Notes under the pieces: model-generated
Told to the model about the DNA's origin: nothing
What the model saw: only the letters and a program-made list of their open reading frames with translations
Databases searched by the model: none
Made by a program: the position numbers and the translations under genes
Shown: piece by piece, positions 11,863 through 26,863 of the stretch
Layout of the letters: each line of letters starts with the position of its first letter
Numbering within the stretch: the first letter of the stretch is position 1
IMG/VR virus record: IMGVR_UViG_3300046167_000222
Span: 1-58,582 of that record
Length of the DNA: 58,582 nt
Strand: one strand, 5' to 3'
Source: a virus

Positions 11863-14085
11863 TAGAATGCCACCTCTGTTACAAGACCATTGACTTGAAT
11901 AGGCAGTGGTGCAGATTGAGAAATGGTAACGCGAGGATCCCTATCGTATCCAAGCACTCTAAATTCTTCCTTGCCACTAACGGCATTAACACCACTTGCC
12001 TGATTTTGTTGTACAGTACGGATTACCAGTTCTGTGCCATTGACTGAAACGCTCAATGTTTCTTCAAGGTCAAGAGTAACCATTGTTATCTTGCGGGGTC
12101 TGCCAGTCAAAGGACCGCCCGGAACCGCGCCATCAACAGGAAGCGTTTTGATCTCAGGAATAAAGCGATAGCCTATCTGCACACTGGTAGATAACTTAAC
12201 AGCACTAACATCTGCGTTGCCGCCAGCTACAGTAAACGTACCTAAATACTCTGTGCCATCAACTGCATGCACTACAGCCCCGTCTGCAAAGTGAGCAGAC
12301 ACATCAAACACACCAGCCACGCCAGTAAAGTCAGCGCAGAAATCCATCTTCATAGATGTGTTAAACTGTTCTAAAACCAGCTTCTCTGTTCCATCTCCAG
12401 CGTCTCTGACAGAGACAGAGAACAAATCTTCATCAACAGCACAGATAGAATGAAACTTGCCTTCAGTATTCCAACGCATCCAGCCAGCACGTTTCTCGTC
12501 TCGCAAGCTATGGAATACAGCTAACTCACCATTATCCATGATGAACAAGCCATACGCTCCCGGTCGAGCAAGCGAGCCTTTGAGCGTAGTCATCTGCACA
12601 GGGTTGCTGACCAAGTGGCTAGACAGCAAAGACACCATAGTAGATGTATAAGCAGCCTCGCTATCAGAGAAGATATACTCTCTAACCGCTGTACCTGTTG
12701 CCTGCACAAACAAAGGTTGCACCATCAAGAGACTGCGGCCTTACATAACCAGAGCCAACTGGTGTCTGCAAAGACACCTTTGCTTTCGATGGCGTAACAG
12801 GAGCGTCTTGGAAAGCAGGCACATAAAACTCTGACTGCGATGCAAACACTTGCAAGTCACGGTTAGACACAAGATGACGTATCTGGTTAGTAACACCAAC
12901 GCTTGCATCTATATCGATAGCGTCATCATCTTCAGCTTCACCAATGTCAAAGTTGTAATAATGACCAGTCTTAGATGCCCATAATCCATCAGGCTGACTT
13001 GGTGTGCCACCAAACCACAACCTATCCTCATGGAATGTAATAGCCTGTGGAAAGCCTCTGAGGCTGCTGTAGGACTGTTCGTACCATTCAGTGGTAGGGG
13101 AGGCGCTCTCAATGGTTGGAGAGCCTCCACCGTCAGCCTCGGACGTTGCAGAGGCACCCGCTGTTATTTCGTATCTATTATCATCGATGATACGGCTAAT
13201 AGTTCTGCTGCCGTTAATATCGCTAGCACCAATACCGCCAAGTCCACCAGCTTCAGCAACGACCAATGCTGCACCATTAGCCAAGCCATGCAATGCATGC
13301 GTGACTTCTATCTTGTTAGAATCTTTTTTCGTTTTGAGAGCATCAATTTCAAGCTGGGTTTTTAGTGTGCCTTGAAGAACGGCTGTCACTTGAGTAGCGG
13401 AAATATAAGCACTAATGATTGCTTCAGTCTCATGGATTAACAATCTTGTTCCAGCGTGTGCTGTATCAAAATAATTCTGTGAACAAGTAAGCGTAACAGT
13501 TCCGCTAGACGCACTAGACGCTATAGTTGTGCCTGCACCTTGAAAATTATAATAAGGCTGATACTTCTTATTGCCATCAATAGATTCGTCAAACTCAAAC
13601 AGACGCATCTCAAAGCTTGTTAAACCAGTACGCACTAACTCACGGCACAAGAATGTGCGATGAGCAATAAACATGAAGTCACCTTTTTGTGTGTAGGTGA
13701 TCTGGTTTAGATTAGCATTAGTAACAGGAACAGGATCACCGTTGACATCAACAGTGAGGGTTTGAACAAAGGACACGGCTCCTGCGAGATCGATCCGAAA
13801 GATGTCGATGCGAGTATCTGAGAATGCAATGATATACTTTTCGTCATCAGAGAAAACAAACGGCTCAAGACGTATTTGTTGAGCCAGTGAAGAATCATAT
13901 GTGTGCGTAAACTCATGTATGCGCTTAGTGCCGGGTCGGTTGATAACCCCACCTTCAGCGCGAATAAAAAAGTTCTTTACAGATTCCGCAGCCGCAACAT
14001 AGACAGGACTATCTGTCCTAGATCTTAGTGACGGACTAACTTCACCAAAAGAAAAGTTGTTTAGCGGTACGCGTATTCTCGCCAT
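11862..14085 (-). pseudogene. Tail nozzle/tubular protein B, frameshifted (copy 1)
   Basis: The first 450 residues read from 14085 to about 12715, then the frame shifts at an A run (ACAAAGG here, ACAAGG in copy 2) and the rest continues to 11862. The intact copy 2 protein (47330-49552) has 740 residues. The N-terminus RVPLNNFSFGEVSPSLRSRT and the ADSVKNFF...GGVINRPGT region match the tail nozzle (T7 gp12-type) family signature of NFS-GE-SP followed by RPGT. The break is a one-base homopolymer difference and probably a sequencing artefact. Confidence 0.8.
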
Positions 14086-23128: not shown

Positions 23129-23140
23129 TGCATTAATGCT
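23129..23140. promoter_or_regulatory. Near-operator TGCATTAATGCT
   Basis: One mismatch from TGCA-N4-TGCA, upstream of the small membrane protein gene. Kept in copy 2 at 58220-58231. Confidence 0.4.
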
Positions 23141-23323: not shown

Positions 23324-23701
23324 CTAGGACAAGTCGATGGTAACAGAGACTTCACCAGCGTGCAGGTGCATGTGTCGATCGGGAGCCTTAAAGCCAGACC
23401 GATCTAGTATATCCTTGCTCGCCTCTAGCTGCACATACTCGCTCTTGGCTCCCCGAGCGAGCTGCACCAACTTGGCGGCGGCAACTGTAGCATTAAGCCC
23501 CAATGCCTCACCCACACACCGCATCATATACTCCTGCACATGCGGTAGCCGCAAAGTCTTGCTGGCTGTCACTCTCCCGCTATCACCAGCAGCGTAGCCC
23601 GCCTTAACAGCGGCCTCTGTTATGCTACAGCCTGTTGCTACAAGGTTATCAACCAAGGCCGTCTGTTTGGCGGTCAAGCCGGTCTTAACTGCATTACTCA
23701 T
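23324..23701 (-). CDS. Terminase small subunit
   Basis: 125 residues. LTAKQTALVDNLVATGCSIT, EAAVKAGYAAGDSGRVTASK and TLRLPHVQEYM form the Terminase_2-type DNA-binding N-terminus, where KAGY is the hallmark followed by an L-x2-P-x-V helix. A helical oligomerisation region follows and a short beta tail ends HMHLHAGEVSVTIDLS. It would recognise the packaging site and hand DNA to the large subunit, which lies 3 kb downstream on the same strand with ten genes between. It appears to be the first gene of the late operon. Confidence 0.85.
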   Translation of the reverse strand: MSNAVKTGLTAKQTALVDNLVATGCSITEAAVKAGYAAGDSGRVTASKTLRLPHVQEYMMRCVGEALGLNATVAAAKLVQLARGAKSEYVQLEASKDILDRSGFKAPDRHMHLHAGEVSVTIDLS

Positions 23702-23720: not shown

Positions 23721-23752
23721 CCCCCCCTTGTGTTCCCCCCCATGTTTCCCCC
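23721..23752 (-). promoter_or_regulatory. G-tract leader of terminase operon
   Basis: On the mRNA strand three runs of 5, 7 and 7 G lie 20-50 nt before the terminase small subunit start. A G-quadruplex is possible if a 7-G run contributes two strands. No ordinary promoter was recognised close by, apart from the 11-mer at 23769-23779. Confidence 0.4.
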
Positions 23753-23768
23753 TTTTGGCACTACCTCG

Positions 23769-23779
23769 TCAACGCACAA
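23769..23779 (-). promoter_or_regulatory. Repeated late-gap element TTGTGCGTTGA
   Basis: Third exact copy of the 11-mer, 68 nt before the terminase small subunit start, where it reads TTGTGCGTTGAC and so contains a -35-like TTGAC. It may mark the main late promoter, but the -10 is unclear. Confidence 0.45.
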
Positions 23780-23827: not shown

Positions 23828-23968
23828 AGCAGGCACCGCAGCCCGAAGGGGGGCTGCTATATCTGCGAGGGTAGGCCCGCCCTTGCGCGTATTCCCTTGC
23901 CAAGCATAGCTTGGGGGAATCCGGCAAGCCGACCAACGCCTACCCTACCCTCGCAGATATTGCCTGCT
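23828..23968. ncRNA. Nested multi-branch hairpin, candidate structured RNA
   Basis: In the 470-nt gap between the divergent terminase and early genes, four nested helices fit together: outer AGCAGGCA (23828-23835) with TGCCTGCT (23961-23968); side hairpin GCAGCCC (23838-23844) with GGGCTGC (23851-23857); a perfect 17-bp stem 23859-23875 with 23944-23960; and inside it ATTCCC/CCAAGC (23891-23905) with GCTTGG/GGGAAT (23909-23920). The full gap 23702-24173 holds no convincing gene. Strand and function are unknown; a cruciform origin or packaging site is an alternative. Confidence 0.6.
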
Positions 23969-24010
23969 CTGGCGTGGAATATGAACCACAAGAATACACA
24001 ACCACCGTGG

Positions 24011-24030
24011 GAGGGGGTGGCATCCCCCTC
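24011..24030. other. Hairpin GAGGGGG-TGGCAT-CCCCCTC
   Basis: Perfect 7-bp stem with a 6-nt loop, 43 nt beyond the large nested structure. A further small hairpin CAGCC-CTT-GGCTG follows at 24049-24061. Part of the same structured noncoding stretch. Confidence 0.5.
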
Positions 24031-24082
24031 TCGTCAAGCAGAAACGCGCAGCCCTTGGCTGGGCGGTTTCCGCTGGACGATT

Positions 24083-24130
24083 CACCCCCCGCTCTCGCCG
24101 AGAGGCAAGAGAAGAAACACGGGGTGTTTT
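24083..24130 (+). terminator. Terminator-like structure before early gene
   Basis: CACCCC (24083-24088) pairs with GGGGTG (24121-24126), followed directly by a T tract (TTTTTCTC). CTCTC-GCC-GAGAG (24092-24104) nests inside. Read rightward it looks like an imperfect intrinsic terminator or attenuator 48 nt before the gene at 24174. The large internal loop lowers confidence. Confidence 0.45.
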
Positions 24131-24173
24131 TCTCATGCCCTATTATGTAACCAACTTTATGGAGTATATCACT

Positions 24174-24692
24174 ATGACTAAGATTTTTGACGCTAACAAA
24201 ACTATCATTTCAAACTGGAATATCGAAGCCCTTGACGATGAAAGCCGCCGCATCAATCCAGCCAGCGGAGAGGAAAACCAGTATTTCAATATTGGTACAT
24301 TCTACCAGCTTGGCAGCCGGTGCGACCAATCAGCATTCAATCTTGAGAGCAGCAAAGAACGCTTTGACACTGCGCAAGCCGCAGCCGACCAAGAACTAGA
24401 AATCAATGGCAACACCAGCGCAAAGTTTTTGCAACTGGCGCAGCGACTAGCACAGTCAGAGGCACACTATGAGAACGCAAAAATGCTCTATGATCTGGAC
24501 GTTGACTTGTTCAATTCAATATCCGGCTTCACATGGCAGCTTGGAGCCAAGATCAAAGGCGACTACTACGGTCGCAAATGGTACCAGCAGCAGAAGGAAG
24601 CACGCCAAGCACGCCGCATCCTTGCACCGAAGGCACCGACCGAAGCCGAGGTCGCAGCGAGACGCGCCGAGATGTTAAAGCGCAGCGCATAA
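24174..24692 (+). CDS. Hypothetical early protein, helical
   Basis: 172 residues from the ATG at 24174 (GGAG 10 nt upstream); an ATG at 24159 is possible. The middle is a probable coiled coil (SSKERFDTAQAAADQELEIN, AKFLQLAQRLAQSEAHYENA). The C-terminus is basic with KWYQQQKEARQARR and EAEVAARRAEMLKRSA. No family recognised. The gene stands alone: a terminator-like structure lies before it and a strong terminator follows, so it is its own transcription unit. Confidence 0.7.
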   Translation: MTKIFDANKTIISNWNIEALDDESRRINPASGEENQYFNIGTFYQLGSRCDQSAFNLESSKERFDTAQAAADQELEINGNTSAKFLQLAQRLAQSEAHYENAKMLYDLDVDLFNSISGFTWQLGAKIKGDYYGRKWYQQQKEARQARRILAPKAPTEAEVAARRAEMLKRSA

Positions 24693-24937: not shown

Positions 24938-24967
24938 TGCATTGCTGCATTAATGCAGTAACATAAT
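24938..24967 (+). promoter_or_regulatory. Early rightward promoter with operator in spacer
   Basis: TTGCAT (24938-24943) and CATAAT (24962-24967) are separated by 18 nt and could be -35 and -10. The perfect palindrome CTGCATTAATGCAG (24945-24958) fills the spacer, so a bound repressor would block RNA polymerase. AAGGAGG (24974-24980) and the first gene follow. The same operator type occurs three times in the immunity region. Confidence 0.65.
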
Positions 24968-25285: not shown

Positions 25286-25525
25286 ATGACTAATCTGTTT
25301 GAACAAACACATCTCGATTTCATATCAGATGTGCTGGCACCGATGTCAGAATACCCCACTCATATCGTGGCAATGGTTAATAAAATCTGTGATGCCAACC
25401 CTGATATGGATCGTGAAAAATTCTTGGCTCGCGCTGTCTCTGCATGGGAGGGAGCGCAGCTTGATCGCATGCAGTCAGAGCATGATGACTATGAAATGTC
25501 CACCAAAATTTGGAGCGCAATGTAA
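25286..25525 (+). CDS. Hypothetical early protein
   Basis: 79 residues with AAGGAG upstream. Helical: FISDVLAPMSEYPTHIVAMV, DMDREKFLARAVSAWEGAQL. No motif recognised. The stop overlaps the next ATG as TAATG, starting a chain of translationally coupled genes up to 26863. Confidence 0.65.
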   Translation: MTNLFEQTHLDFISDVLAPMSEYPTHIVAMVNKICDANPDMDREKFLARAVSAWEGAQLDRMQSEHDDYEMSTKIWSAM

Positions 25526-26364
25526 TGTCTAAATATGATGAAGTCACCAAGCAGATCACTGCTCAACTCAAGTCAGGCACCAAGCCTTGGATCAAACCAT
25601 TCAATGGCAGCGGCAGCTTCATGCCAACCCGCACCACTGGTCAATATTATCGTGGCATCAACGTGCTGCTGCTGTGGTTACAACAGCGCAGCGCACCGAT
25701 GTGGATGACATATCGGCAGGCTGCTGCTTTGGGTGGACAGGTACGCAAGGGTGAGAAAGGCACCACTATTTGTTACAGCGCACCGCAACAAAAGAAAGAC
25801 AGTGACGAAACCTATCAGGTTATGAAGTGGTACTCTGTATTCAACTGCGATCAGATCGATGGCTTGCCTGACCAATACTATCCAACGGTCACTGGCTTTG
25901 CCAACCCTGACAAGCAGATACCATCAGTCAATGCATTCTTCTCTAACACCAGCGCAGAACTCAAGCATGGCAGCAAGACAGGTGCATTCTATATGCCTAG
26001 TCAAGACCGCATTGAAATGCCTGACTTCGATCAGTTCCGATCCGGGCTAGATTATTATTCAACGCTGGCACATGAGCATGTCCATTGGACAGGCCACAAG
26101 TCACGCCTTGATCGCAGCATGTCACCAAAGAAACGAGAGTATGCCTTTGAGGAATTGATAGCGGAGATGGGAGCCGCATTCCTCATGGCTCACCTCGGAC
26201 TAGAGCCATCAGTCAGGCCAGATCATACTGACTATCTAGCCAACTGGCTTGAGGCTCTTGGCAGTGACAGCAAATTTATATTCCAAGCTGCAAGCGCAGC
26301 ATCAAAGGCTGTTGATTACATGATCGACAAGCAGCCATCAATTCAGACATGGGAGGCAGCATAA
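25525..26364 (+). CDS. ardC: ArdC-like antirestriction protein (ssDNA-binding plus zincin)
   Basis: 279 residues from the ATG at 25525, which overlaps the upstream stop (TAATG). The N-terminal half resembles the ArdC ssDNA-binding domain (IKPFNGSGSFMPTRTTGQYY, then GKKGEKGTT-like VRKGEKGTTICYS). The C-terminal half has the metallopeptidase motif HEHVH at residues 183-187 in LAHEHVHWTGH, followed by FEELIAEMGAAFL with the third ligand. In plasmids ArdC protects incoming DNA from restriction. As an early gene it would guard the phage DNA after entry. An early-expressed virion-independent defence role is inferred. Confidence 0.82.
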   Translation: MSKYDEVTKQITAQLKSGTKPWIKPFNGSGSFMPTRTTGQYYRGINVLLLWLQQRSAPMWMTYRQAAALGGQVRKGEKGTTICYSAPQQKKDSDETYQVMKWYSVFNCDQIDGLPDQYYPTVTGFANPDKQIPSVNAFFSNTSAELKHGSKTGAFYMPSQDRIEMPDFDQFRSGLDYYSTLAHEHVHWTGHKSRLDRSMSPKKREYAFEELIAEMGAAFLMAHLGLEPSVRPDHTDYLANWLEALGSDSKFIFQAASAASKAVDYMIDKQPSIQTWEAA

Positions 26365-26561
26365 TGATGAATAAGAATGAATGGACACCATTCGATGCTG
26401 TGTATAATACCACCGAGCAGCGCCAGCCCACATATAGCTGGGCGCAATCGGTGGATATCATTAACAAGGTTGTTCACGCATCGCTTGATGAATGCATGTT
26501 GTCAGATAACGACAGGCAAATGATTATCTCTGCTTGGTCTACAATACTGCGAGGTGTGTAA
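26364..26561 (+). CDS. Hypothetical early protein
   Basis: 65 residues, ATGATG start at the upstream stop (TAATG). N-terminal WTPFDAVYNTTEQRQPTYSW, then a helical C-terminus. No family recognised. Its stop again overlaps the next ATG (TAATG), so expression is tied to both neighbours. Confidence 0.6.
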   Translation: MMNKNEWTPFDAVYNTTEQRQPTYSWAQSVDIINKVVHASLDECMLSDNDRQMIISAWSTILRGV

Positions 26562-26863
26562 TGTTAACTGATCCTTTAGATAATATTATCTCTAATGTGT
26601 CAGATATAACTGGCGTTAGATTGCATGAACTTATGTCAAGCAGAAAAGAACAAGGCATAGTGGATGCTAAACAAATCTATGTATATCTAGCAGTGGAAAC
26701 CACAAGCAAAAGCTATGTCCAAATAGCAAAAGCTATATCAAAAGATCATACAACGGTTATGCATGCATATAAAAAAGCTAAGTATAAAGTTGATGTTGAT
26801 ATGAGGTGGCTCACAAAATTGCGCAGAACTGTAAAGCAAATGGGCTTACAATTAATCGTCTAG
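26561..26863 (+). CDS. Free-standing DnaA domain IV-like protein
   Basis: 100 residues from the ATG at 26561. The central part reads as the DNA-binding domain of DnaA: GIVDAKQIYVYLAVETT, YVQIAKAISKDH and the signature DHTTVMHAYKKA (residues 62-73). No AAA+ domain is present; the first 30 residues are a short helical extension. In DnaA this domain grips the DnaA box. The phage protein may bind its own origin or compete at host boxes, both inferred. It converges on the repressor gene, overlapping its end by 12 nt. Confidence 0.82.
   Translation: MLTDPLDNIISNVSDITGVRLHELMSSRKEQGIVDAKQIYVYLAVETTSKSYVQIAKAISKDHTTVMHAYKKAKYKVDVDMRWLTKLRRTVKQMGLQLIV

Follow-up and report, generated by a model that had tools for sequence, protein, structure and literature searches.

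What is the ordered array of hairpins that lies between two divergently oriented genes of a viral contig, and in which form, if any, does it act? The DNA considered here, referred to as the window, is the whole of IMG/VR record IMGVR_UViG_3300046167_000222, a stretch of 58,582 bases. Self-comparison resolves two co-linear stretches in it, within positions 1-23491 and 34222-58582; the record appears to hold two copies of a phage genome, 75-94% identical in pieces, as tandem prophages, a chimeric assembly or something similar. The array lies in a gap bordered on the left by terS and on the right by the first rightward gene. The features to which we refer are as follows.

23324-23701, minus strand: terS, encoding the small terminase subunit (PF03592, E 5e-9; phrog_51)
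23721-23741, no strand assigned: C7-TTGTGTT-C7 motif, which in terS sense is two G7 tracts upstream of terS; most relatives have a motif of the same kind
23767-23779, minus strand: CGTCAACGCACAA (in terS sense TTGTGCGTTGACG), the -35-like element/dyad of a promoter-like site, assigned from the relatives' sites
23828-23968, minus strand: nested hairpin, or rod, from folds of both strands and the comparison of pairs with the relative L089
24011-24030, no strand assigned: 7-bp hairpin in the gap fold, with similar sequence in L089
24031-24080, no strand assigned: interrupted long hairpin in the gap fold, strongly conserved in L089
24084-24132, plus strand: stem with a short T run, a doubtful terminator, the T run being broken in L089
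24174-24692, plus strand: first rightward gene, 172 amino acids, predicted helical, its start placed by alignment with L089
24710-24737, plus strand: intrinsic terminator after the first gene, from a terminator scan

A large terminase gene is also present. The first-pass annotation had described a gene-free gap of about 470 nt, and the length stands: because the L089 alignment suggests a rightward start at 24174, the gap would measure 472 nt. That it is gene-free is less straightforward, as an ORF of 159 amino acids runs across it, yet in the equivalent stretch of L089 no frame is open throughout.

The nested structure claimed for 23828-23968 is borne out by the folds of both strands. In the plus-strand fold, an outer stem of 8 bp (23828-23835/23961-23968) is followed by a side hairpin of 7 bp (23838-23844/23851-23857) and by a perfect 17-bp stem (23859-23875/23944-23960) that encloses an inner branched stem and tip. 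Folding against shuffled controls, as the annotation had proposed for both strands, gave a minimum free energy of -82.2 kcal/mol on the plus strand, compared with -54.65 (sd 3.89) for 200 dinucleotide shuffles (z -7.1), and of -86.8 kcal/mol on the minus strand (z -6.1); no shuffle out of 200 was as stable on either. The whole gap, folded as 481 nt, has z of -5.9 (plus) and -5.4 (minus), with 0/100 shuffles as stable on each strand. The two further hairpins that had been described, at 24011-24030 and 24031-24080, also appear in the gap fold. The terminator-like stem with a T tract fared poorly, as the scan for intrinsic terminators, which looks for a GC-rich stem with a T run directly after it, lists none within 23828-24132. 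The element is present once in the record, and the second genome copy stops opposite 23491, in agreement with the statement that the array lacks a counterpart because that copy ends before it. A dispersed mobile palindrome of the REP or MITE type was considered and rejected on account of the single copy in the record. Matches outside gaps, which occur in 17 rows from phage loci, are mostly inverted arms, the remainder being short and close to gaps. The broader judgment that the arrangement is too ordered for chance is supported by the stability of the fold, by double changes that keep pairs and by a wobble bias toward one strand, the latter two of which are described below.

Relatives were collected in three ways. 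An exact 16-base piece of the stem is found in seven stretches, including two near-identical relatives, L003 and L005; a search with the TerS protein yielded 531 relatives in 600 candidate stretches, from which 80 loci were kept; and a search for the motif pattern added further loci. Together at least 195 loci carry the motif, and these reduce to 146 distinct gaps, the window being left out because its compared stretch is identical to that of L005. Of the distinct gaps, 133 were long enough to cluster and 77 formed the non-redundant set for counting stem mismatches. Where viral contigs have a related terS, this gap is often occupied by a stable rod or by a long but imperfect palindrome. One relative is in culture, Pelagibacter phage Hodr; its TerS is 59.7% and its large terminase 65.3% identical, its layout is the same, and its gap, at 12037-12373 of OQ414635, folds with z -5.2 on the strand opposite to terS sense. 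The record L090 (OQ414635.1), named EXVC031P Hodr, bears locus tags EXVC032PBaldr, possibly a mix-up of names. When 160-nt windows were ranked by GC-corrected stability, the gap window beat every outside window in 26/63 loci, including the window analyzed here, and several gaps ranked lower or were unremarkable by this measure, for example those of L036, L061, L076 and L078. TerS relatives are encoded in 6/29 candidate stretches from genome contigs, all metagenome-assembled genomes of mixed labels, and therefore we assign no host. The gene layout differs in a Vibrio phage whose TerS is distant, and a DNA search of GenBank phages returned no match.

Between L089 and the window, 36 of 41 consensus pairs are unchanged, 4 differ on both sides, 1 differs on one side and none is broken, the two sequences being those that supplied the consensus. 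A further set of four loci shows two-sided changes in 15/86 pairs. The stems are thus not of the kind, neither conserved nor covarying, that the first-pass annotation had named as telling against it, since pairs are kept by two-sided changes. Such changes are what a structured RNA is expected to leave, and a DNA hairpin would look identical. A cluster of 21 gaps is not well alignable as a whole, its tips being mosaic. The gaps of L172, L176 and L188, as well as those of L025 and L086, share a small palindromic element that contains AACGTCCG and CGCAACGGCC.

The hairpin of the window is small beside those of some relatives. Up to 2200 nt from the C-tract motif, an inverted repeat is detected at E<=1e-5 in 65/148 sequences, the smallest of those counted spanning only 26-35 columns, and in 14/148 the alignment of the palindrome extends over 527-1346 columns. 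The window and Hodr fail this test, the hairpin of the window being too short, and both are short forms. In the non-redundant set, inverted repeats at the same threshold occur in 28/46 gap stretches and in 2/144 control stretches taken elsewhere in the same loci (0/54, 0/30, 1/35 and 1/25). Ten long forms are non-redundant; in these, the intact first gene lies in the arm farther from terS, and the arm adjoining terS matches an inverted copy of that gene; at the protein level, the matches contain stops or frame breaks in most long forms, and the match is weak in L083 and absent in L166. The array of the window is the short form of a rod-like element kept between terS and the first rightward gene.

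The two arms co-evolve. A comparison of L053 with L074 gives similarities of 82.0% for the gene arms and 80.0% for the other pair of arms. Had the arms evolved independently after the split of these loci, arm-to-arm values within and across loci should be about equal; those found are 75.8 and 78.1% within each locus and 66.8 and 62.9% across. Watson-Crick pairs of L053 that are a different Watson-Crick pair in L074 account for 50 two-sided changes, beside 41 one-sided ones, and when partners were slid by -3, -1, 2 or 5 positions, the double changes fell to 4, 3, 3 and 2. L057 and L074 gave 45 double changes as against 1-5 in slid controls, and the distant pairs L142/L022, L053/L039 and L083/L022 gave 65, 70 and 61 as against 6-15; L076 and L167 are too alike to discriminate (5 as against 0-1). 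With wobble counted in terS sense, 81-91% of the ungapped columns are paired in the ten long forms. Support is good for the structure, for its location and for the co-evolution of the two arms.

The mismatches within stems indicate which strand folds. They were counted from folds made without G-U pairs, so that neither strand was favored. Read in the rightward sense and with at least 8 flanking pairs, there are 61 A-C and 15 G-T mismatches, together with 31 C-T and 28 A-G. In the palindromes of the 37 non-redundant loci with an inverted repeat of at least 90 columns, 550 A-C compare with 125 G-T, which corresponds to wobble on the terS-sense (minus) strand; 36/37 loci lean this way and none leans the other. 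Among one-sided changes in pairwise comparisons of loci, wobble in terS sense outnumbers the opposite by ~2.2:1, and as slid controls already lean by ~1.6:1, mutation accounts for some of the bias. Folding in terS sense gives the greater stability in 73/76 cases (mean difference -0.059 kcal/nt, compared with 0 to -0.021 in control stretches). Some internal-loop sequences recur solely in terS sense, and one loose loop pattern, picked after viewing the sequences, is present in 15/77 loci, as against none when read in the opposite sense and 3.0 in shuffles. No preference for RNA tetraloops was seen in the loop sequences. Wobble bias and stability favor folding in terS sense, by an RNA or by one strand of the DNA.

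Signals for transcription are clearer for terS than for the rod. Beside terS, a C-tract/spacer/C-tract is followed by TTGTCAACGCACAA (23721-23779 in the window), and a TTGTCAACGCACAA-like dyad is conserved in relatives. In terS sense, 73/77 loci have TTGAC at a distance of 22-26 nt ahead of the G tract, and the -10-like match is 3.51 of 6, compared with 2.24 in shuffles. The site is a candidate promoter-like element for terS; it is downstream of the rod in that sense and therefore would not drive transcription of the rod. A G-quadruplex might arise from the two G7 tracts.

The first rightward gene appears to travel with the rod. In L089 the gene is 72% identical to that of the window. The model of its protein is helical and fairly confident (pLDDT 82.6); Pfam and PHROGs offer no family, only weak sub-threshold rows, and a Foldseek search of the PDB gave matches all with E >0.08, mostly to coiled-coil proteins, none of them convincing. 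Close relatives of the gene were found at 2 loci in the viral collection and at none in GenBank phages. L020, L021 and L022 have identical TerS proteins and different rod-plus-gene cassettes: L020 combines a gene of family 1 with a short rod, L022 a gene of family 0 with a long palindrome, and L021 belongs to a third rod cluster. Each rod cluster corresponds to one gene family wherever a gene is listed, a weak test given the breadth of family 0 (46/60). Three loci in which the picked ORF is unlike a relative (L108, L173 and L180) are left out of counts concerning the first gene. The best reading of these associations is that the rod is co-inherited with the small helical protein of the first gene.

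The element is best taken as a structured nucleic acid under selection, probably one read as RNA in terS sense, and on balance we would expect it to act as RNA. The explanation that we prefer, with roughly even chances of being correct, is that a rod-like element acts as a terS-sense RNA and belongs with the first gene to one cassette. The structured RNA proposed in the first-pass annotation gains in this respect from fold stability, double changes and the lean of wobble toward the minus strand, and these leave room for other forms. Relative to the first gene, with which it would make up the cassette, the RNA would be antisense or leader-like, and its transcription would run in terS sense. In the long forms, one half would be antisense to the whole of the first gene and the other half would mimic it, so that the likeliest task would be control of the first gene; alternatively, the RNA may act as partner to the small helical protein that the gene encodes. 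What the RNA reading chiefly lacks is a promoter at the right border, where no conserved one was found in terS sense, only a short A-tract-side context with no -35. In the long forms, the palindromes end near the rightward terminator that follows the first gene, and a right border there would fit a rightward transcript instead. The rod might accordingly be the 5' leader of the rightward mRNA of the first gene, controlling its translation. In 43/57 loci the first gene forms a unit closed by a terminator of its own, and in short forms the rod is situated just ahead of its ribosome-binding site; wobble bias and stability, however, favor the opposite strand, and no rightward -10-like signal follows the motif (2.44, compared with 2.42 in shuffles), which makes a leader quite unlikely.

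The absence of an RNA promoter equally lends something to a functional form made of DNA, in which a terS-sense hairpin or cruciform would serve replication or packaging beside terS. The site adjoins terS at the point where two gene blocks diverge, the GC skew of Hodr changes sign at the gap, and G-T is a mild mismatch in DNA too. Against this, GC skew follows gene direction, no origin motif was identified, and the strand bias needs the assumption that one strand is exposed as single-stranded DNA. Contig ends, a proxy for genome ends, are not concentrated at the hairpin, and in near-full-length contigs terS occurs at many different positions, which speaks somewhat against a fixed, cos-type genome end at the hairpin and is compatible with a pac site. 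We consider the DNA role doubtful. A telomere like that of N15 was dropped, since contigs continue across the structure, which differs from a simple palindrome. It is unlikely, finally, that the element is functionless, a site prone to inverted duplication whose arms are kept similar by template switching or gene conversion. The distribution of long forms among TerS neighbors is scattered, conversion also makes double changes, and a strand skew exists, third codon positions being skewed in first genes, downstream genes and terS. Run-length variance lies above that of shuffles in 5 of the ten long forms and below it in the other 5. Conversion is nonetheless expected to leave long tracts, and the longest perfect runs are of 13-17 bp, above the shuffle mean in 0/10; long conversion tracts are absent from the long forms, and even spacing is not general. 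The excess of wobble exceeds what composition provides (a G-T share of 0.19, compared with ~0.43 expected from the composition of the arms), and many lineages have the element at this one position, with hardly any occurrence at other positions of the loci compared.

Returning to the terS-sense RNA and its cassette, a more specific picture can be drawn tentatively: a phage cassette of a helical protein and an opposite-strand rod RNA, in which the gene would be one arm of a kilobase hairpin, the broken copy would be kept only for pairing, and the unit would be swapped beside terS. The hairpin of gene and relic sets the element apart from merely another family of structured RNA, and the findings point to a novel type of structured element in phages, whether of RNA or of DNA. 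In PMC12286853, GOLLD and ROOL are described as large structured phage-borne RNAs of unknown function, often near tRNA islands, and as described there they resemble the present element in being large, structured and carried by phages. They are unlike it in that nothing here matches Rfam 15 at the gathering score (0 matches in the window and in 11 loci, GOLLD and ROOL included), the window contains no tRNA, and the rod or palindrome shows little sequence conservation and is tied to a neighboring gene. At E<=1, the gap gives two Rfam matches far below the gathering score, neither convincing.

Other systems share parts of this arrangement. Packaging RNA of the phi29 type is structured, keeps its fold with little kept sequence and lies beside packaging functions, as here; the present element differs in lacking an Rfam match and in the presence of terS and the large terminase gene. 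Hairpin loci of plant microRNAs have been proposed to be born by inverted gene duplication, and one arm here is likewise a broken inverted gene copy. The setting here, however, is a phage, in which RNA interference is not expected, and the arms stay paired over wide divergence without decay. Lambda OOP and P22 sar are short phage antisense RNAs, and the RNA considered here would also be antisense to a neighboring phage gene; the putative transcript would differ in reaching up to ~1.3 kb and in being mostly self-paired. Among open-licence PMC papers, we found none describing the element, which does not establish its absence from print. If the reading is correct, selection for pairing holds a gene and its inverted relic together over hundreds of bases outside eukaryotic RNA interference, a gene is constrained from both strands simultaneously, and a large structured element of aquatic phages is missing from Rfam. 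The cultured member, Pelagibacter phage Hodr, allows testing.

Near the start of the rightward block, the window also encodes an ArdC-like anti-restriction protein (25510-26364) and a small protein with a DnaA C-terminal DNA-binding domain (26534-26863). The palindrome GCATTAATGC, with at most one mismatch, occurs at 17 sites in the window compared with 3.8 expected, a number reached in 0/100 shuffles, and is a candidate operator. Its sites include 23130-23139 and 24947-24956, and in relatives similar TGCA-type dyads precede the next rightward genes.
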